Origin: a virus
Length of the DNA: 39,381 bases
IMG/VR virus record: IMGVR_UViG_3300031658_000030
Coordinates: 1 to 39,381 of that record
Strand: one strand, 5' to 3'
In this document: positions 3,987 through 19,683 of the stretch, piece after piece
Layout: each line of letters opens with the position of its first letter
How positions within the stretch are numbered: the stretch's first letter is position 1
Notes under the pieces: model-generated
What the model was told of the DNA's origin: nothing
Seen by the model: only the letters and a program-made list of their open reading frames with translations
The model's database searches: none
Position numbers and translations under genes: made by a program

Positions 3987-4415
3987 ATGCCCACTAATTA
4001 CCCAGTCGAGAAGATAGTGATTCACGGCTCAGCCAGCCCATTGCGAGGAGATTCTGCTGAGGATGTCCACCGCTGGCACCTACAAAACGGGTGGGACGGG
4101 GTGGGGTATCACTGGCTAATTGGCGAAGGTAAGTGCGAAGCAGGGCGGCCTGAGTATTGGATAGGGTCTCATGTGCGAAGGCACAACACGAACAGCATAG
4201 GCATTATGTTATTTGGTATGGGGCCAGACGAGTACACCGAAGCGCAAATGAGCATATTGGCTAACAAGTGCAGAGAGATTTTAGCTAGACATGAGACCAT
4301 TACTGACGTTTGCGGTCATAGTGATTTAGACCCTGTTAATAAGCCGTGTTGCCCCGGTTTTAATGTCAGATTGTGGGCTAAAGAAACTGGAATAATGCCA
4401 AGGAGCAACCGATGA
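3987..4415 (+). CDS. N-acetylmuramoyl-L-alanine amidase (endolysin)
   Basis: This 142-aa protein is an Amidase_2 / T7-lysozyme-type zinc amidase, which cuts the amide bond between N-acetylmuramic acid and L-alanine in peptidoglycan. Visible motifs are IVIHGSA with zinc ligand H13, GYHWLI with catalytic Y41, GHSDLDP with zinc ligand H111, and K119 followed by C121-C122 before PGF, one of which is the third ligand. The length is close to T7 lysozyme (151 aa). No signal peptide is present, so release would depend on the holin encoded next door. The ribosome binding site is weak (only AAGTAG upstream). The stop overlaps the holin start as ATGA, indicating translational coupling. Confidence 0.92.
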   Translation: MPTNYPVEKIVIHGSASPLRGDSAEDVHRWHLQNGWDGVGYHWLIGEGKCEAGRPEYWIGSHVRRHNTNSIGIMLFGMGPDEYTEAQMSILANKCREILARHETITDVCGHSDLDPVNKPCCPGFNVRLWAKETGIMPRSNR

Positions 4416-4810
4416 GCATTGCAGCGATTACCAGCATGTTAGTAGGGCCAGTGGCCGATTTGATAGGCAAATTTATACCCGACAAAGATCAGGCGGCTAA
4501 ATTAGCCCACGACATAGCAATCATGGCAGCCACTCAGGCCCACCAACAGGCAATGGGGCAAGTAGAGGTAAATAAGGTTGAAGCAGCGCATAGATCAGTG
4601 TGGGTTGCGGGGTGGAGACCCTTTATCGGCTGGACTTGTGGGCTAGGACTCTTTTACAATGTACTGGCGCATCCGATAGCTTCTATTTGGTACGAAATGC
4701 CTGTAGTAGACCCAGACTTGCTGTACCCTGTAATGCTGGGTATCCTTGGCATTGGTGGTATGAATGTCGCAGCTAGAACTTATGAGAAAGTTAAAGGCGT
4801 CGCCGTATAA
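4412..4810 (+). CDS. Holin, GTA-type 3TM family
   Basis: This 132-aa protein starts inside the amidase stop (ATGA). It has a helical N-terminal region with KFIPDKDQAAKLAHDI, then the characteristic AAHRSVWVAGWRPFIGW motif (residues 58-74). Two clear membrane segments lie at about 71-94 and 103-122, with a hydrophobic N-terminal helix as a possible third. This pattern matches the GTA_holin_3TM family (PF11351, from memory). Its expected role is to permeabilise the inner membrane at the programmed time so that the adjacent amidase can reach the cell wall. Confidence 0.85.
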   Translation: MSIAAITSMLVGPVADLIGKFIPDKDQAAKLAHDIAIMAATQAHQQAMGQVEVNKVEAAHRSVWVAGWRPFIGWTCGLGLFYNVLAHPIASIWYEMPVVDPDLLYPVMLGILGIGGMNVAARTYEKVKGVAV

Positions 4811-9722: not shown

Positions 9723-9912
9723 ACGATTTATTAGCCGTGACCCAACAGTATCGCGACGCAAAGAGTATATGAAGCTGGAAGGTGAAGGCGTGTCACAGAA
9801 GGCACTTTGGGCTGCGCTAGAGGCTTTACAGGCGCAAGGTATAGATATTGGGCCAAAAGCAAAGGAAGTACTAGATAAGAGGGTTGCTATTAAGCAAGGC
9901 GCGCCTAAATAG
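9715..9912 (+). CDS. Small hypothetical protein, 65 aa
   Basis: The ATG lies within the last codons of the preceding gene in another frame. The product is basic and helical (SRRKEYMKLEGEGVSQKALW, then AALEALQAQGIDIGPKAKEV). No domain is recognised. It is tightly packed between two virion-region genes and shares one base with the next start (TAGTG), so it is probably translated as part of the same message. Function unknown. Confidence 0.6.
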   Translation: MSKRFISRDPTVSRRKEYMKLEGEGVSQKALWAALEALQAQGIDIGPKAKEVLDKRVAIKQGAPK

Positions 9913-10370
9913 TGTCTACTGGTAAAGTAGTTAGCCCTGTGTATCAAAACAGGTTAGTTTTTGACCGTAAAGACCTTATAGGCGCATGGGTAGCGGTTAA
10001 AACTGGGCAAGATACAACGTGGGGAGACTACTACGCTATGGGTATTATGAGAGGAAGCACTGTTATTTCTGGGGTAGTGTTCAATAATATGAACGAATCC
10101 AACTGCACAGCGCACATTGCTGTTGAAAAACCTACCAAATTACTACTCGACCTTATCGCAGCGGCGTGTTATTACGCCTTTAACCAGTGTAGACTAAAGC
10201 GTATGACAGGCATGGTGCCTACTAGTGACGTAGATGTTATAGCTTTCGACAAACATATAGGCTTTGAAGAAGAATTCATAATGAAAGATGCTGCCGCCGA
10301 CGGCGATATGCAAGTTTTAGTACTAACCCCAGTGACCGCGAGTCGCTGGCTGGAGAGGGCACATGGGTAA
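9912..10370 (+). CDS. GNAT-fold, T7 gp13-like internal virion protein
   Basis: The gene begins with GTG, overlapping the preceding TAG. The 152-aa product has the layout of phage GNAT-like proteins: a central strand (STVISGVVFNNMNESNCTAH), a long helix (KLLLDLIAAACYYAFNQC), then RMTGMVPTSDVDVIAFDKHI and FEEEFIMKDA. This arrangement (hydrophobic helix, R(M/L)T strand, D..A..F....GF/I) resembles acetyltransferase folds and the T7 gp13 internal core protein family. A clear acetyl-CoA P-loop (Q/R-x-x-G-x-G/A) is not visible, so it may not be catalytic. It lies immediately before the internal-virion genes, as gp13 does relative to gp14-16 in T7-like phages. Confidence 0.65.
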   Translation: MSTGKVVSPVYQNRLVFDRKDLIGAWVAVKTGQDTTWGDYYAMGIMRGSTVISGVVFNNMNESNCTAHIAVEKPTKLLLDLIAAACYYAFNQCRLKRMTGMVPTSDVDVIAFDKHIGFEEEFIMKDAAADGDMQVLVLTPVTASRWLERAHG

Positions 10371-11394
10371 GAAATCAAGCGAAGCTCCTGACTACACAGC
10401 TATGGCTGACGCCGCACAGTTTGCAGCGGAAACTTCTAGGGACTTAGGCGGAAGGGCAATAGACTTTGCGGAGCGGCAGTATGCAGAAAACAAGCCTAGG
10501 TTTGACGCAATTGGAGATGGGCAAATTGCTGCGCAAACTCAGCAGTTAGAACAAGGTAAGGACTACTTTGACTACAACAAAGAAACTTTTAGGCCGTTAG
10601 AACAGGGCTTAGTTTCTGACGCTCAGAACTTTAGTAGCGCTTCTTATGGCGAAAAACTGGCAGGGGAAGCCTCTGCCGCAGCGGGTAACGCCTTTGCTAA
10701 TACGCAACAACAACTGGCGCGTTCTGACGCAGCGCGGGGACTTAACCCCAACTCACCAGCCGCTAGGGCCGCTAGACAACAGGCTTCACTAGGTTTAGCC
10801 GCTTCCAGAGCTAACGCTATGACAAACGCTACCAGTCAAGCTGAGCAACTTGGTTGGGCTAGACGCCTAGACGCAGGTGGCTTAGGTCGTGGTTTGGCGG
10901 GTGCATCTTCCGCAGCCTACCAAGGTTCTGTGGGGGCTGGCTCTGCGGGTGTTAACACTTACCAAGCTGCTGGGCAGAATTATCAGGCGGGTATTTCTTC
11001 TGGTGCGGGCATATACAATGCTGGTTCACAGACTCAAATGAGTGGCTTAAACAGCATTATGGGCACTCAGATGGACGTGTACTCATCTAACCAAGAGATG
11101 GAAGGTGCCAAGTTTGGCGCGGTTATGGGCTTAGCTGGTGGGGCAATGGGTGCATCTGACCGTAGACTTAAAGAAAATATAGAGTTCCACCACAAAGATA
11201 TGAACTTGAACCTTAACTTCTACACGTTTAACTATATATTAGCGCCAGATCGTACGTTTGTAGGTCTTATAGCTGACGAAGTTATTACTAGTTACCCACA
11301 TGCTGTAGAACTCGGCCAAGACGGATACTACTCTGTGAATTACGGCGCGCTTAACACGCGTATGCTTGAAATAACTAGCAAGGAGACCGCGTAA
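10363..11394 (+). CDS. Internal virion or tail protein with C-terminal S74-type domain
   Basis: This 343-aa protein overlaps the GNAT-like gene by 8 nt and has the ribosome binding site GGAGAGGGCAC. Residues 1-255 are Ala-, Gln- and Gly-rich and largely helical, resembling T7 gp14-like small core proteins. The C-terminal ~80 residues begin with SDRRLKENIEF and contain FTFNY-like and FVGLIADEV segments, matching the S74 pattern with S265 and K270 as the Ser-Lys dyad. This is the second S74 domain in the window, and it sits on a non-fibrous protein. The S74 domain may assist assembly or have lost cleavage activity. The gene ends in TAATG with the next start. Confidence 0.75.
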   Translation: MGKKSSEAPDYTAMADAAQFAAETSRDLGGRAIDFAERQYAENKPRFDAIGDGQIAAQTQQLEQGKDYFDYNKETFRPLEQGLVSDAQNFSSASYGEKLAGEASAAAGNAFANTQQQLARSDAARGLNPNSPAARAARQQASLGLAASRANAMTNATSQAEQLGWARRLDAGGLGRGLAGASSAAYQGSVGAGSAGVNTYQAAGQNYQAGISSGAGIYNAGSQTQMSGLNSIMGTQMDVYSSNQEMEGAKFGAVMGLAGGAMGASDRRLKENIEFHHKDMNLNLNFYTFNYILAPDRTFVGLIADEVITSYPHAVELGQDGYYSVNYGALNTRMLEITSKETA

Positions 11395-13016
11395 TGGGTT
11401 TTGCAGCAGGTATGTACGCGGGCCAAAAAGCCGCAGAAAGCGCGATTGATAACTTTAGATCAGCTAGAAAAAACCGTGACGAGCGGCAAGTTCAAGCTGA
11501 AATAGAGGGCTTGCAGACAAAAAACGCCGAAGAAATAGAATCTTCCACTGCCGCTGGCGGCGCTTATGACGCTGAGCAGTTAAGACTGGCTAGTATGTCT
11601 CCACAGCAGCTAAAGGCGCAACAAGTTGGCTTAGGTAGAACCCCTGCCGGCAGCGTCCCGCAAATGTCTCCTGTAGCGAATCCGCAGTTTAGACCAGACC
11701 CAAATCAGACAGTTGGTGCGGGGCTAATGATGCAGCCAAACTCACAGCAGTCTCGCTCTCCTGCTTCTGGGCAAGCTATGGGCATGGGCGCAAGACCAGA
11801 ACAAGTTGCCGCTATAACTCAATCGGAGATGTTACGTAAGCGCGAAGGGTTACTACGTAGTCGCGGGCAAACAGAGATGGCTGACGATGTAGCTATCCGT
11901 GCATCGAACCAAGAAGACATTGATTACAGACAGGGCAGAGATGTTAAAGAAGACGAGCGTAACGCGGTTCTGGACTCGCAAAGAGACCAGACGTTTAAAC
12001 AACAGCTTGAAATTAACGGATACCAGCTAGAAACTCAGAGGGAAGCGAGAGCTGTCAAAGATGCTGTAGATAGCCTGAGTAAATTTGGCTCAGTCGATGA
12101 AGCGATGGCGTCGTCTTTATACAACGACCTTCCGGCATCACAAAAGGCAGCGGTTGCTGGCACAATGACTGGCGTTGCTAATGCGGAAATGTTAGCGAGC
12201 CAAGCAGGGATTAAGAAGCAGTTTAGTAAAGCTACTGACATTGGCGGCGTAATAGGTATATACAACGACGATGAAGCGCTTACTGAAGGTACTACTATAG
12301 AAGGCGTAGAGTTGGAAGATGGCGGCTATCGGCTAGATACTTACCAAGATCAGGGCCTTCCGCCAGACGGCGATGAAGGCCCATCCCAGACTCGCGATAA
12401 CGGGCTAACAGGCTCCATGACATTTCCAGATGCCGAGACTGCTGACCTTTACTTGCGCCAAAAAGCGTTAGACCCAGTAACCGCTGCTATGTATTACCAA
12501 GAGCAGAAAGCTGCTATGAGAACGGTAGCGGCTGAAGCACTTGCGGATGCTAGTGACGACCAAGTTAAAGCGTTAGACTCACTCATAAAGATGCGCATTG
12601 AGTTCAACAGCGATACCGGTGCTTTCTTTGGCTTGCCTCAAGAAGAAAAAGAAGAAGAATGGGGTAAAATCGTATCAATGTATGCGGGAATCTTGACCCC
12701 CAAGCAAATGGAAGCGCAGATGGGCGGTCTTAAAGACGCGCGTGAGACTCCGGCTGGTGCTAACTGGTTTAAAAACCTCATCAGCTCTGATGAGGGCGAA
12801 ACTGCTGAGGGCGAAACTGCTGGGATTCCCGGTGAAAAAACTAGGGGAGAGCAGATTTCTAATATAGGAGGCGGGTTAGTGGACGCAGGAGTGGGCGCGC
12901 TTAAAACTACTCCACTAATGATGGGGGCAAGAGCAGCGCTATACGGCGGAGGTAAGGTGCTAGATGCAGCAGACTATCTTACAGATAAAGCCAGAGGGCT
13001 ATCGCCGGGAAAGTAA
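11394..13016 (+). CDS. Internal virion protein, 540 aa (zero-frame product of a frameshift gene)
   Basis: The start overlaps the previous stop (TAATG) and has AGGAGACCGCGTA upstream. The product is Gln-, Ala- and charge-rich and mostly helical, with long predicted coiled regions (residues ~15-50, 140-230). Near the C-terminus there is a duplicated EGETAEGETAG segment and then a Gly/Ala amphipathic part. It lies in the position of T7 gp15, a core protein ejected into the host. The final codons CCG GGA AAG TAA contain the slippery heptamer GGGAAAG in the correct phase, directly before the stop. The downstream -1 frame carries a transglycosylase domain, so an extended ~711-aa product is likely too. 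Confidence 0.8.
   Translation: MGFAAGMYAGQKAAESAIDNFRSARKNRDERQVQAEIEGLQTKNAEEIESSTAAGGAYDAEQLRLASMSPQQLKAQQVGLGRTPAGSVPQMSPVANPQFRPDPNQTVGAGLMMQPNSQQSRSPASGQAMGMGARPEQVAAITQSEMLRKREGLLRSRGQTEMADDVAIRASNQEDIDYRQGRDVKEDERNAVLDSQRDQTFKQQLEINGYQLETQREARAVKDAVDSLSKFGSVDEAMASSLYNDLPASQKAAVAGTMTGVANAEMLASQAGIKKQFSKATDIGGVIGIYNDDEALTEGTTIEGVELEDGGYRLDTYQDQGLPPDGDEGPSQTRDNGLTGSMTFPDAETADLYLRQKALDPVTAAMYYQEQKAAMRTVAAEALADASDDQVKALDSLIKMRIEFNSDTGAFFGLPQEEKEEEWGKIVSMYAGILTPKQMEAQMGGLKDARETPAGANWFKNLISSDEGETAEGETAGIPGEKTRGEQISNIGGGLVDAGVGALKTTPLMMGARAALYGGGKVLDAADYLTDKARGLSPGK
13007..13013 (+). other. Candidate -1 ribosomal frameshift site GGGAAAG
   Basis: The heptamer reads G GGA AAG in the zero frame (X XXY YYZ), followed immediately by the TAA at 13014-13016. 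GGGAAAG is the slippery sequence known from the lambda G/GT tail-assembly frameshift. Slippage by -1 would bypass the stop and read GTA ACG GGA GGG onward into an open frame that ends at 13528. An SD-like AGAGGG lies 8 nt upstream, and a 5-bp hairpin (GAGGG with CCCTC, 8-nt loop) lies a few bases downstream. Both are possible stimulators but weak ones. Confidence 0.7.
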
Positions 13017-13528
13017 CGGGAGGGTCTCCTAGCCCTCAAGCCTCACCGCCACAAGCCTCACCGCCACAAGCGGCTACGTCAAAAAAAGGGCTGACCAATA
13101 CCCCTACCTATAACCGTTTAGAAACGAAAGGTGGGTATACCCCTGCATCTACTGGCGACCCCTCGTTTGATAAGTTTGTTGACCAGATTATTCTCGCAGA
13201 AAGCGGCGGAGACCCCCGTGCGGAAAGCGATGCAGGTGCGAAAGGGCTTATGCAGGTCATGGACGCTACTGCCAGTGACCCCGGCTTTGGGGTAGAGCCT
13301 CTCAAAAACCTATATGACCCTGAAGAAAACGTACGTTTTGGGCAGCAGTATATAGGCGCTTTACTTAATCGGTATGGCGGCGACAAAGAAGCTGCGTTAG
13401 TAGCTTACAACGCTGGCTTTGGTTATGCAGACAAATGGTTAAGGTCAGGTAGAGATTACGCTTCGCTGCCGCAACGGCAAGAAACTGAACCTTATGTTAG
13501 AAAAATAATGAAAGGGTTTATCGGATAA
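13013..13528 (+). CDS. Lytic transglycosylase domain in -1 frame of the internal virion protein
   Basis: From the slip site this frame is open for 171 codons. A Pro/Ala/Gln linker with a duplicated SPPQA unit is followed by an SLT (soluble lytic transglycosylase) domain. Its features are DQIILAESGGDPRAES with the catalytic Glu encoded at 13199-13201, GAKGLMQVM, then ALVAYNAGFGYADKWL. No ATG, GTG or TTG exists in this frame between the previous stop (12986-12988) and the Glu. The ATG at 13250 would lack the catalytic residue. The domain is therefore probably made as a frameshift fusion, placing wall-degrading activity on an ejected protein as in T7 gp16. A CTG start at 13091 is a weaker alternative. 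Confidence 0.75.
   Translation, partial: VTGGSPSPQASPPQASPPQAATSKKGLTNTPTYNRLETKGGYTPASTGDPSFDKFVDQIILAESGGDPRAESDAGAKGLMQVMDATASDPGFGVEPLKNLYDPEENVRFGQQYIGALLNRYGGDKEAALVAYNAGFGYADKWLRSGRDYASLPQRQETEPYVRKIMKGFIG
13040..13069 (+). repeat. Tandem 15-bp repeat in the linker
   Basis: GCCTCACCGCCACAA occurs twice in tandem (13040-13054 and 13055-13069) just after the frameshift site. In the -1 frame it encodes a repeated Ala-Ser-Pro-Pro-Gln unit, forming a flexible linker between the helical virion protein and the transglycosylase domain. Confidence 0.8.
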
Positions 13529-16500
13529 TGCCTATATATAACCTAGAAGGGCTTAGGGAAAGCGCAGGGAATCCTGACGTAAGCGACGAAGTTCTTGTGA
13601 GTACGTACGCACAGGCCACAGGCCAAAACATGTCTGAGGTGGCAAGCTATCTTGGTATGGACACTGGCATAGATGGCGGTGCGTTTAGCACTGGTCTAGC
13701 TGCGGGTTCTGACCAAATACAAGGCTTAGGTTATGGCGCACTGGCTGCTGGCGCTGACGCGTTAGGGTTTGACGGCGCAAAAGACTATCTAAACGAGCAA
13801 GTAGAAACTCAGAACATACAGGCGCAACTGAGCAACAACCCAGACATAGCCCAGCGAGTAGAAGATATAGACGGCGTTGGCAGCGCGTTTAGTTTCGGTG
13901 TGAACCAAGTAGCTAAGCAAGTTCCTATAATGGGCAGCATTGTCGGTGCTGGCTTAGTTACTGGTGGACTAGGTGCAGGGGCTGCGGTAGGTGCGCTTGG
14001 CGCTGGTTACGGTATTGGTGTCGGCTCTCTATACAACGAGTCTGTAGAGGGGGGTAATCCTGACGCTGAAACCTCGTTCATAAAAGCCGTCCCCTATGCC
14101 GCCGCAGAAGCTCTGGTTCCTCTAGGCATTGGTAAAATGCTAAGAGGGGCGTTTAAGGGCAAATCAAGCACTGTCGCTGCTGGTGCCGATGAGCAAGTTG
14201 ACTTGATGAGTAGTTTGGTTAACGACCCTTCCAAGTTAAGACGCGTTGGTAAAGCAGCGGGCACGGGTACAGTTGCTGAAACTATTACTGAACTAGGTCA
14301 GACAGAACTAGAAATTTCTATGCGGGACGATCTTTCAGACGAGGAGAAAGGCTCTCGCAGGTTGAACGCGGCTGTTACTGGTGGACTTGTTGGAGGAACC
14401 TTTAGTGGAGGTGCTGCCGCACTAACACCTAAACGTAAACCTGCGGTAGACGAGACTCTCGACATAGACCCTGAAGCAACGAACGATAACGCTGAGCGAG
14501 AAGCTGCTGAAGCTGAAGCAGAGGGAGTCCCTACAACTACTGCAACGGAAAACGAAGCGGGTGAGCTTGACCTCGCTCCAAACACAGGACAAGACCAAGC
14601 CGCTGAAGATGTTGAAGCTGCTGAAGCCGCCGCCGTTGCTGAGGCGCAGGAACAACGTGAAGTAGAAAAAGAGAAAGTTAGGCGGGAACTGGAAGTGCAA
14701 GTAGGGGGGAGCCTAAACCGTCAACAACAAAAAGAGAAAACAGGGGAAATAGAAAACCTAAAGTATGACCTAGAACAAGCAAAGCAAGCTCCCCCAGTGC
14801 TGACAGGTAAAGGGACGAAGAAGCAGCAAAAAGCCGCAGGGGTATCCGCAAAGAAAAGCATAATAGAAGGAATAGAGGGGCAAATAGCTGCTCTTGAAGA
14901 ACAGCTTGCAGCTAACGATACTGCTAATACTGCGGGTATTGATCTAGCGCGCTTAAATAACGAAGACGTACTGCCGTCTGAATATAAAGCTGAGCAAGAG
15001 CGCCAGCAACAAGAGGCGGTTGAGGCCGCTAGAGTTGCGGCTGAGCAACAGAAGCAGCAGCAGCAGCAGCAAGAAAGCGAGCCAATAAGTGACCCCGTTA
15101 CAGGAGCTGACCCCGTTGTAGAAGGCGACCCCGTTACAGGAGCTGACCCCGTTGCAGGGACAGGCCCAATTGACGTAACTGGACAAGAACAAGAAGGCTC
15201 GCCAGAAGAACAAGGGCAGACAACTGACGAAGTAGTGTTTAATGAAACAGAAATAGCGTCAATAGTAGAAAAATCTGAAGCGCAAGCTGCTGCGGAAGTA
15301 AAGCGAAGCGGGAAGCTAAAATCTGAAGTTACAAGCGCTGAGGGTAAGGCAGAGGGGAGGGTTACTAAGTCGCAGAGCTTTTTAGCTGCGGTAGCTAGAC
15401 ACTTGAGAAGCCCGACTAAAGGTGGCTTTAACAGGATGTACAAAGCTAATCCTGAAGGCGAAGGCGGTGTCATAGTAGATGAAGAAGGAACCGCTGCTAA
15501 TAGCCAAGAGATAGATAACATACGCGCGGCATACCATAATATTCTAAAGCTAGGCTCTATTTTCCTAAACGATGGAAAGCAGCTTCCTAAGAAAGAAGAT
15601 GATGATTCAGCAGCAGCCTCAGCAGAAATACGCTCGGAACAAATGCCCGCATTAGTGCAAGCCGTAGAGGAGTTCATAGAACTTGTAGGTGGCGAAGCAA
15701 ACGCCAACGCTATTATGGCTGTTATAAAAGGCGCTAAGGAGTCAAGGGGCGGCAAAGACTCGACTTCTAATAGGTCGGTTTTTAGCTATGCTAATACTCT
15801 GTTTGGGAGAGGTAAAGCCGACTTAACTACCCGTGAGGGCTTTGCAACTAAAGCTGACACTATCGTGTCGTCTTTGTTCGCTGCGTACAAAGACGGGCGG
15901 CTAAACGAAAACTTCGACATAGCGCCGCAGGGGCGCGTAGTACGACCTAATGATAAACAGCAAAGCAAGCCTACTGGCGCGCAAACCCATAAAAGTCTAA
16001 AAGACGCCTATAAAGACGGGTATGTACCCAACGGCAATCGAAATCTAAAAAAAGCGAACTACAAAGGTTTGCTCGGCGTTATGAACAGGGCCGCTGATTC
16101 TGGCACCGCGACAGTAACTTCTAGGATGCTTAGGAAGCTGCTAGACCGTGTGATAAAAAGCCAAAGAGCGGCAGGGGTAGCAGAAACAAAAGTAGTGTTT
16201 GACACTAAAAAAGGTGCGAAGCCTAGCTATGACCCCAATACCGATACTATAACTTTTCCTGAGTTAGTAAGCGCAGAAGTAGCTTTGCACGAAATACTGC
16301 ACGCTATACTCCAAGGGTATGTCTATACAAACTTTGGCAAGAATAACGCAGCGGGGGCAGCCATAAAAGTTCTTGTTAAAAACGTAGAAAAAGTAATCAA
16401 TACTGATATTACCAAAGTTAATGGCTTAACCGACCAGCAAAGGCTGGAAGCTGTTGAAGTACAAAACATACTTAAAGACTTACGAGATAGCGGACAGGAC

Positions 16501-19500
16501 AACGACCAAGGCATGAAGAACGCAGTGCTTGAGCTTATATCTTATGGCAACACGCTGTACTCATTTAAGTTAATGCTCAACAACTTACCCGCGCCTAAAA
16601 CCAAAACAGCTAACAAATGGAGACTTGATGTTAAAGCTGTTTGGCAGGGGATAATAGGCGTCTTGCGTCAAGTTCTGCCGCAAGTAGAAGGAGTAGGCGA
16701 ATCTTCAGCTTCTCAGGTACTAGATGCCACGATAGCGCTATTACAAGAAGCTCACGACAATCCTACTCAGAGCGTCCCCTTGCCCGGAACAGTGCTTAAA
16801 GCTGATGTAACTAGCGAAAGCGTAGCTGCCAAGACTGATAGAGACATGCGGGGATTTGGCAAAGGCACTACGTACGGCATAACTAAGTTTCTGTTTGATT
16901 TTGTAAACGGTATGCTGCCTGAAGGCACTCCAGCTAAGTACCAAGCTAAGATAAAAGAAACGCTTGTGGACTTCACAAAGAAGAATCCCAACATAGAAAA
17001 GATGGTTCGCTACATGAACGGCCAGCTAGCTTTCGGAATGAAGCTAAAGCAGGTTTTTGAGACATTCAAAACAGATAAGCACACTATCGTACAGCTTGCA
17101 GAACTAGTTTCGTCTAAGCTGAAGGTGCTTATAGAGACAGACATGGACAGCGCGCAAGCCTACTTAGACTACTTGGACGGGAATAAGAACGCTCTGGACA
17201 ATGTAACAGGTGGCAAGCTCATGGCAGCTCGCGCTGACAACTTACTAGAGTCGCTTAGAGAGAAAACAAACGCGCTGCCTGAAAGTATGCAAAACTTTTT
17301 CTCAGGTAAATTTACTGAAAACTTAATATTTGTCGAGAGTGACGCTGACATTGGTTCTAGCAGTCCGGGTAAGCGCAAGCTAACCACCATAGTAGGCGAA
17401 GACCGTAAGAAAGATGAAGAAAACTTAACAGACGAATGGGTTTATAGCTCAGAAGTTCAAGACGCGGATGGTTCCGTGCCAGAGGGTACGCCTCTAAACA
17501 CAGGCGCTGAGTACTACCGCGTAGTAAAAATGGATGAAAACGGCAAGCCAATGCCCGACAAGCACCAAGGGTACGTTCGCCGTGACATTGCCGAGCAGTT
17601 TGGAGGAGAAACTGTACTAGACGCAGATGGTGAATCATTCGCAATTTATAAAAACGGCGGATTGTGGAAAGCTGATGATTCCAAAGGTGACGGCACGGTT
17701 ACGTTTACTACCAACAAGACCGTAGCTCAAGCACTGAAAGACGCCAAGACTTTACAAGAAAAGATATTAGCCGCCGACAGTATTGGGGTTGCCCTGCTTA
17801 ACACAGCGAACACAATAGGTACGTACTACGCGTCTGCTCGGTTCTTCAAGGGGTTGTGGGAAACAGGACGAGTGAACGGCGAAATAGACTTGGACGCTGA
17901 AGAAAGAGGCGAGGTGGCGATAGCGTGGTCGAGTCTCGAAGAACTTAATTCGTACTTACAAGCCTCAGCAGAGCGCGATGAAGTTCCATTCACACCAGTA
18001 CCCGCAGATAGAGTACAAAAGACCAAAGACCTAAAATCAGTTGCTACGTCTTCAAAGCTACGCATAACAAGCTCATACGTACAAATGCCTGACACTCAAG
18101 CTATGAAAGACCAAGGCATCCCTGTAGAAGTTTGGGGTGATATATCAGGCAAGATAGTCACTGGCCCTGTATACGCTGCTATGAAAGACATGGCATCTAG
18201 GGAACAGTTGTTCAGCAGTTCTTTTGGCAAACGCTATAGCTCGGTTCTTAGGCAGTTTAAATTATCCAAGACGACGCGTAACCCCGGCACTCACATGACC
18301 AATGCCATATCTAATCTATCGCTTATGATGGCGCACGGCATATCGTTTGGGACAGTTAGGTACGCAGCGGAAATCCTATACTTGGCAGCAAGGAATCCCG
18401 ATAAACTTACTGACGCTCAAATTGAGTTTCTAACCAAGTTTGAAGCGTATGGCTCTTTGCTGGGCAACTTCTCTGCCACTGAAGTAAGCCACAACGTAGC
18501 CGAGCGTATGGCTAAAGATATGACTGACCAAAACGAAGGCGACTTAGCGACTAAAACGCTGACTATGCTAGGTATTGAGGGCGGGCATATAGAAAACGTA
18601 CTTAGGAAAGCGGGCAGGAAAGCGGGCCGAGCAGACAAAATGTTTCTGGATATATACGCTGCGGAGGATAACGTATTCCGATTAGCTGCGTTCCTGCATA
18701 GCGCTGGTAAGTCACAAGAAATTAACTCTGGCGGCTCTACAGACATTACATCTGACATGAATCTCACAGACGCGCAGTGGGACGAAGCTGGTAAGTTTGG
18801 TCGTGAAGCGTTCCTTAACTACGACATTGACTCTGCTGCTCTAAACATGGCGCGACAAAGTGTTATGCCTTTTGCGTCGTGGACATACGCTGTTGTGCCT
18901 GTACTGACAAAAATAGCCCTAACTAAGCCGTGGATGCTTGCCAACGTGCTAGCGTCTTATGCAATGGTCGACGCGTTTGCTTCTATGCTTGCTGGTGAAG
19001 ACGACGAAGATCGCAAGAAGATGGGTGAGATGTACCAAGAAAGATTGTTTGGTTCGTTCGGCCCTCACACTATGATTCGCATACCCTTTCTAGGCAGTGA
19101 TAAAGACCCTGTGTACTGGAAGATGGGCGACTACATACCGCTAGTTAGTACAGGACGAGGGGTGCCGGGAGGTACGTTCGGGTACGACAACTGGCCCGGA
19201 GGTCTCGCACCTAGCGGCCCGTTCGTTATAGCCGCTAGTATGGCCCTAAGCGTTGATGCCTTTACGGGCAGAAAGACTAGCGACCCCACCGACACTGGTA
19301 TGGACACCACTATGCGCAATGTGGGTATGGTGTTTGACATGTTTATGCCTCCTGCCCTCAGTAATAGAAACTGGGAAAAAACTATGAAGTGGTTTGACGA
19401 CACTAAAGACTTCACAGGGGAGCCTATGGACGGTATGTTTGCTGCTAGGGCGTTTGGCTTTAAGTTCTACAACCCCACCACAGACAAAGAGCGTCAGATT

Positions 19501-19683
19501 AAGAGTAGCAGTGCCAAATTTATTAAGCGGGACTATGGTATGGCTATCTCTAGGGCTAAAAAAGCGGAGTATAGGAAAGGCACCCCAGACTACGCTGGCC
19601 TACGTGAAGAATTAGCCGACCTCAGAAAAAGACGGCGAGATGAACTGGACGAGCTTTTCGGCAGAGAAAGAGAAGACGACTAA
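13528..19683 (+). CDS. Giant internal virion (DNA-ejection) protein, 2051 aa, with HEILH zincin-like motif
   Basis: The start overlaps the transglycosylase stop (TAATG). The N-terminal part has Gly/Ala hydrophobic segments (about 132-170) suited to membrane insertion. Next is a long charged, Gln- and Glu-rich helical region (about 300-560) with a duplicated DPVTGADPV segment. A zincin-like motif HEILH lies at 921-925 (VALHEILHAILQGYV), followed by further helical domains. Near the C-terminus are MPFASWTYAVVPVLTKIAL and an amphipathic region typical of ejection or polyvalent proteins. Its size and position after gp13-, gp14- and gp15-like genes match a T7 gp16-type protein that enters the host with the DNA. 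A protease function is inference from the HExxH motif; no third zinc ligand was identified with confidence. It ends tail-to-tail with the minus-strand HNH gene. Confidence 0.8.
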   Translation: MPIYNLEGLRESAGNPDVSDEVLVSTYAQATGQNMSEVASYLGMDTGIDGGAFSTGLAAGSDQIQGLGYGALAAGADALGFDGAKDYLNEQVETQNIQAQLSNNPDIAQRVEDIDGVGSAFSFGVNQVAKQVPIMGSIVGAGLVTGGLGAGAAVGALGAGYGIGVGSLYNESVEGGNPDAETSFIKAVPYAAAEALVPLGIGKMLRGAFKGKSSTVAAGADEQVDLMSSLVNDPSKLRRVGKAAGTGTVAETITELGQTELEISMRDDLSDEEKGSRRLNAAVTGGLVGGTFSGGAAALTPKRKPAVDETLDIDPEATNDNAEREAAEAEAEGVPTTTATENEAGELDLAPNTGQDQAAEDVEAAEAAAVAEAQEQREVEKEKVRRELEVQVGGSLNRQQQKEKTGEIENLKYDLEQAKQAPPVLTGKGTKKQQKAAGVSAKKSIIEGIEGQIAALEEQLAANDTANTAGIDLARLNNEDVLPSEYKAEQERQQQEAVEAARVAAEQQKQQQQQQESEPISDPVTGADPVVEGDPVTGADPVAGTGPIDVTGQEQEGSPEEQGQTTDEVVFNETEIASIVEKSEAQAAAEVKRSGKLKSEVTSAEGKAEGRVTKSQSFLAAVARHLRSPTKGGFNRMYKANPEGEGGVIVDEEGTAANSQEIDNIRAAYHNILKLGSIFLNDGKQLPKKEDDDSAAASAEIRSEQMPALVQAVEEFIELVGGEANANAIMAVIKGAKESRGGKDSTSNRSVFSYANTLFGRGKADLTTREGFATKADTIVSSLFAAYKDGRLNENFDIAPQGRVVRPNDKQQSKPTGAQTHKSLKDAYKDGYVPNGNRNLKKANYKGLLGVMNRAADSGTATVTSRMLRKLLDRVIKSQRAAGVAETKVVFDTKKGAKPSYDPNTDTITFPELVSAEVALHEILHAILQGYVYTNFGKNNAAGAAIKVLVKNVEKVINTDITKVNGLTDQQRLEAVEVQNILKDLRDSGQDNDQGMKNAVLELISYGNTLYSFKLMLNNLPAPKTKTANKWRLDVKAVWQGIIGVLRQVLPQVEGVGESSASQVLDATIALLQEAHDNPTQSVPLPGTVLKADVTSESVAAKTDRDMRGFGKGTTYGITKFLFDFVNGMLPEGTPAKYQAKIKETLVDFTKKNPNIEKMVRYMNGQLAFGMKLKQVFETFKTDKHTIVQLAELVSSKLKVLIETDMDSAQAYLDYLDGNKNALDNVTGGKLMAARADNLLESLREKTNALPESMQNFFSGKFTENLIFVESDADIGSSSPGKRKLTTIVGEDRKKDEENLTDEWVYSSEVQDADGSVPEGTPLNTGAEYYRVVKMDENGKPMPDKHQGYVRRDIAEQFGGETVLDADGESFAIYKNGGLWKADDSKGDGTVTFTTNKTVAQALKDAKTLQEKILAADSIGVALLNTANTIGTYYASARFFKGLWETGRVNGEIDLDAEERGEVAIAWSSLEELNSYLQASAERDEVPFTPVPADRVQKTKDLKSVATSSKLRITSSYVQMPDTQAMKDQGIPVEVWGDISGKIVTGPVYAAMKDMASREQLFSSSFGKRYSSVLRQFKLSKTTRNPGTHMTNAISNLSLMMAHGISFGTVRYAAEILYLAARNPDKLTDAQIEFLTKFEAYGSLLGNFSATEVSHNVAERMAKDMTDQNEGDLATKTLTMLGIEGGHIENVLRKAGRKAGRADKMFLDIYAAEDNVFRLAAFLHSAGKSQEINSGGSTDITSDMNLTDAQWDEAGKFGREAFLNYDIDSAALNMARQSVMPFASWTYAVVPVLTKIALTKPWMLANVLASYAMVDAFASMLAGEDDEDRKKMGEMYQERLFGSFGPHTMIRIPFLGSDKDPVYWKMGDYIPLVSTGRGVPGGTFGYDNWPGGLAPSGPFVIAASMALSVDAFTGRKTSDPTDTGMDTTMRNVGMVFDMFMPPALSNRNWEKTMKWFDDTKDFTGEPMDGMFAARAFGFKFYNPTTDKERQIKSSSAKFIKRDYGMAISRAKKAEYRKGTPDYAGLREELADLRKRRRDELDELFGREREDD
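15091..15154 (+). repeat. 28-bp direct repeat within the giant virion gene
   Basis: An identical 28-bp sequence occurs at 15091-15118 and 15127-15154, separated by 8 bp (period 36, in frame). It encodes DPVTGADPV twice in a low-complexity acidic linker following a poly-Gln tract (CAGCAG repeats around 15055-15070). This looks like a recent in-frame duplication of a linker. Confidence 0.85.

Follow-up and report, generated by a model that had tools for sequence, protein, structure and literature searches.

The DNA analysed here (the window, denoted W in comparisons) is the complete IMG/VR virus record IMGVR_UViG_3300031658_000030, 39,381 bases in length. An acyltransferase gene, a structural gene, ORF2 and a giant gene follow one another in this order, the last three, with the frameshift elements and the -1 frame extension, on the + strand. 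The acyltransferase gene (9912-10370, phrog_4470) lies among structural genes, and acyl/acetyltransferases are similarly placed in Rhizobium phage TM27A and in HTVC024P. The upstream neighbour of ORF2 (10363-11394) codes for a structural protein of the virion (343 aa, phrog_8003); like the tail-fibre gene 281-2104, it has a Peptidase_S74 chaperone domain at its C-terminus. ORF2 itself (11394-13016) encodes in the zero frame a helical protein of 540 aa, the short form, with the last ~75 residues disordered. Family and fold searches gave no match and no sequence or fold relation to a known ejection protein was found; the virion role of ORF2 therefore rests on gene order, and the protein was not filed as a member of the podophage internal virion/ejection proteins. 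Its place among the structural genes agrees with such a protein, and this position makes ORF2 a probable internal virion/ejection protein.

Overlapping frames at the end of ORF2

ORF2 ends CCG GGA AAG TAA, as originally predicted, with GGGAAAG at 13007-13013 in the phase G_GGA_AAG and the zero-frame stop (TAA, 13014-13016) directly after it. The sequence is thus an in-phase slippery heptamer of the X_XXY_YYZ type, situated at the overlap of two frames, since the open stretch of the -1 frame begins at 12989 and continues across the heptamer. The -1 extension (13013-13528, stop codon at 13526-13528) comprises 171 codons and would give a long form of 711 aa; it contains the predicted proline-rich linker, which is flexible and rich in Pro, Ala and Ser, followed by a complete SLT domain. 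The giant gene (13528-19683; 2051 aa, no recognised family) starts within the SLT stop codon, at its third base. Neither readthrough of the ORF2 stop, which adds ~25 codons, nor a +1 shift (16 nt) reaches the SLT domain, and both were rejected as routes to it.

Elsewhere in the window, the ORF at 2106-2735 ends in a slippery-like GGGAAAC before its TAA. The next ORF (2735-2977) has its own overlapping ATG (TAATG), which makes coupling the simpler reading, and this site was set aside as ordinary.

The SLT domain and its probable expression

The complete domain in the -1 frame matches the PF01464 profile (1e-23). AlphaFold2 models it with confidence as an SLT fold (pLDDT mostly at or above 90) behind the disordered linker, and Foldseek matches it to Slt and MltE as well as to a T7 core protein. 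Alignment to E. coli Slt70 (1sly) confirms the place of the predicted catalytic Glu codon (13199-13201), which falls on the 'ES' motif and is invariant in 15 SLT relatives. Profile, fold and catalytic residue all agree with the SLT family, and the domain is probably a lytic transglycosylase that would cleave peptidoglycan.

The original prediction placed this Glu ahead of any ATG, GTG or TTG of the -1 frame, and the first such codon is indeed found at 13250; before it, the only near-cognate codons in W are ATC at 13001, CTG at 13091 and ATT at 13187 and 13190. Ordinary gene calling based on start codons would consequently yield the 540-aa protein, accompanied at most by a truncated ORF of 92 aa (13250-13528), and the enzyme would be overlooked. 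The -1 frame is constrained: between W and the relative L001, dN is 0.145 and dS 0.386, and between W and the more distant L003 dN is 0.31 with synonymous sites saturated. This constraint indicates that the SLT domain is maintained and therefore very probably expressed, and since W and L001 both lack a start codon for it, frameshifting is the only route to its expression that was found.

Conservation of the layout

Two relatives have the same arrangement, so that three distinct sequences are available, representing only two well-separated lineages. L001 (L001/L002) is 53% identical to W in ORF2 and 75% in the SLT domain, and L003 is 27% and 58% identical, respectively. In both, ORF2 ends in G_GGA_AAG followed directly by TAA or TAG and the SLT domain lies in the -1 frame; conservation of the heptamer and of the two-frame layout, suggested along with the prediction as a check, was thus observed. 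An additional contig (L026) has an L001-type junction. L003 has a much shorter linker, and the sequence flanking its heptamer is largely different. At 3977-3989 of L003, AAATTTG, TTTGGGA and GGGAAAG form three overlapping in-phase slippery-type heptamers ahead of the stop.

Among 788 distinct ORFs of at least 100 aa from 80 related loci, exactly three end in GGGAAAG, and these are the ORFs of W, L001 and L003; as the same three have the SLT domain in the -1 frame, the pairing of signal and domain is more than chance. In-phase G_GGA_AAG occurs seven times in the 222,222 codons of the distinct ORFs of these loci.

A decayed remnant in the -1 frame, or a frame break introduced by a sequencing or assembly error, would account for an SLT domain without an initiation codon, and the sequence is metagenome-derived; this explanation is nonetheless so improbable as to be nearly negligible, given that independent contigs break at the same heptamer, that the SLT domain is complete with invariant motifs, and that the -1 frame is under constraint. 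An error at 13007-13013, which had been named as a possible refutation, is excluded because independent contigs, one of them at 27% ORF2 identity, have the same two-frame layout.

The other refutation envisaged, relatives in which SLT is an independently initiated gene, was looked for and found in no close relative. A separate SLT gene, translated either from a non-standard start codon or by ribosomes reinitiating past the ORF2 stop, could draw on the near-cognate CTG and ATT codons of W and on a GTG at 4049 of L003 that precedes its catalytic Glu. It is very unlikely, however: W and L001 have no ATG, GTG or TTG ahead of the Glu, no start is common to W, L001 and L003, and such a gene would leave unexplained both the heptamer and a frame that is open across it in all three. 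A programmed -1 frameshift that fuses the SLT domain to ORF2, as first proposed, is supported by the heptamer, its phase, the layout, conservation, the co-occurrence of signal and domain and the constraint on the -1 frame.

Candidate stimulatory elements

In E. coli, a high propensity to shift has been documented for G_GGA_AAG (PMC5009743). In W, a hairpin (GAGGGT/GCCCTC, 6 bp, 13020-13037) begins 6 nt past the heptamer, and L003 has a 9-bp stem of unrelated sequence at the identical 6-nt spacing, so that in W and L003 a downstream structure lies within the 5-9 nt range, although the W stem alone is modest. Stems of at least these lengths occur at 3% (W) and 0.17% (L003) of positions. Against dinucleotide shuffles, 15% of which are equally stable, the W hairpin by itself is not significant; wider RNA structure over 87-181 nt had no excess stability.

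An upstream Shine-Dalgarno (SD)-like stimulator is common in bacterial -1 frameshifts and is not obligatory. Such an element is found 8-9 nt 5' of the heptamer in W (AGAGGG, 12992-12997), L001 and L003 (TAGGGG at the corresponding place); comparable pairing is present at 8-10% of random positions, and taken alone the element is a weak indication of a stimulator.

Apparent gain and loss of signal and enzyme

Further relatives were collected through the upstream gene (the 343-aa neighbour), which is better conserved than ORF2, giving 79 loci. In a 61-row table of the ORF after this gene, which includes W and, in a few rows, fragments or a different small ORF, more than 50 relatives have neither SLT nor a terminal GGGAAAG in ORF2, with ORF2 generally placed directly before the giant gene. 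A lytic Pfam domain was found in frame 0 of ORF2 in none of 43 members and in none of the partial giant proteins; PF01464 was absent from all of the eight SLT-less records searched whole (25-63 kb), and PF18013 was likewise absent from SLT-less records. A search for more cassettes by DNA pattern returned only contigs already known, no ORF2 relatives were found among cultured phages, and no relatives were confirmed in bacterial genomes, where they were sought through the upstream gene.

In the tree of the upstream protein the three SLT-positive loci fall within one well-supported subclade of five, which implies at least two gains or losses of SLT. Judged from this distribution, the domain is an optional add-on in part of one subclade and not a core of the ORF2 protein, and frameshift signal and enzyme appear to have been gained or lost together among related phages.

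The boundaries of the segment with signal and enzyme are visible in two comparisons. ORF2 of L003 shares 65% identity with that of L020 (L047 is this same contig), the nearest relative without SLT, and the two loci differ by one block, which extends from just before the SD-like sequence to the vicinity of the giant-gene start. For W against L001, nucleotide identity reaches 92-94% over codons 1-200, 37-46% over codons 201-531 and 92% over codons 532-551, the last segment beginning just upstream of the SD-like sequence; ORF2 is thus mosaic (window 11394-12990 against L001 3435-5180), with identity high again at the frameshift site. In both alignments signal and enzyme behave as one unit. Whether the SD-like element, GGGAAAG-stop, hairpin, linker and SLT constitute an exchangeable cassette, which could be joined to different C-termini of a virion protein and would add an enzyme at low stoichiometry with the main product unchanged, is an evenly balanced question. 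L003 and L020 offer a natural plus/minus pair with which to ask what purpose a low dose of enzyme serves in the entry apparatus.

Proposed mechanism and role

On the comparative sequence evidence, it is highly probable that a minority of the copies of a probable internal virion/ejection protein acquire an optional lytic transglycosylase through programmed -1 frameshifting. Most ribosomes would stop at the end of ORF2 and release the 540-aa short form, while a minority would slip back one base on G_GGA_AAG, helped by the hairpin, the adjacent stop codon and possibly the internal SD-like sequence, and would produce the 711-aa long form, in which ORF2 is followed by the flexible linker and the SLT lytic transglycosylase; two proteins would thus be made from one gene. 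If ORF2 is an internal virion/ejection protein, a fraction of its copies per particle would therefore carry a peptidoglycan-cutting domain for genome entry. We infer the slippage itself, its efficiency and the ratio of the products, as well as the virion location, the ejection role and the enzyme activity.

Alternatively, real frameshifting could yield a long form that serves lysis or assembly instead of genome entry from the virion, and the lack of a recognised family for ORF2 leaves room for such a role. This is unlikely, considering that ORF2 lies among structural genes and that a protein of Pelagibacter phage HTVC024P with an in-frame C-terminal SLT directly precedes annotated internal virion proteins. 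The window also encodes a separate endolysin-like amidase (3987-4415) and a holin (4412-4810), which makes a plain lysis role less likely.

Comparison with known systems

The best-known cases of frameshifting in tailed phages concern tail chaperones and capsid proteins. In the G/GT genes of phage lambda, a frameshift on G_GGA_AAG gives a minor, C-terminally extended product that acts as a tail assembly chaperone. Heptamer, phase and the minor extended product are the same as proposed for W, whereas in W the stop follows the heptamer directly and the product is a probable enzyme-bearing virion protein instead of a tail chaperone. In T7 10A/10B and in the major capsid protein of phage Privateer, a -1 shift lengthens a virion protein in a minor share of its copies, the predicted signal of Privateer being also GGGAAAG (PMC7881722); unlike in W, it is a capsid protein that receives a tail, and the tail is non-enzymatic.

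A related case is Alteromonas phage vB_AspP-H4/4, where a predicted -1 frameshift joins an internal virion protein to a putative lysin (gp39/gp40; PMC5658483). The signal, A_AAA_AAG then TAG, is predicted only, and the order is the reverse of that in W, with the lysin part N-terminal and always made. In H4/4 (L131 10825-10838) and in its relative R8W (L132 774-783) alike, the putative endolysin gene finishes with A_AAA_AAG TAG; R8W keeps the heptamer, and its second gene has an independent ATG. No Pfam match was obtained for H4/4 gp39.

Enzyme domains carried in frame provide a further comparison. Gp47 of HTVC024P resembles the long form of W in its C-terminal SLT and in its gene position, after an acetyltransferase and just before the internal virion proteins, but every copy carries the enzyme. 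The T7 internal virion protein gp16 likewise has an SLT fold in a virion core protein, but in this case the domain is N-terminal and in frame, with no frameshift. Rhizobium phage TM27A has a similar gene order, and the corresponding 962-aa protein contains an in-frame Phage_lysozyme2 domain; its giant protein (L124 3480-10403) contains PF18823, an inorganic pyrophosphatase-like domain that was not detected in the giant protein of the window.

In searches of open-licence PMC papers, no account was found of a virion protein that gains a C-terminal lytic enzyme by frameshifting. If the proposal is true, frameshifting sets the number of virion-protein copies that bear a wall-degrading enzyme. The principle is already known from lambda G/GT, T7 10A/10B and the Privateer capsid, and the C-terminal extension by a lytic enzyme would be a variant of it, one with strong comparative support.
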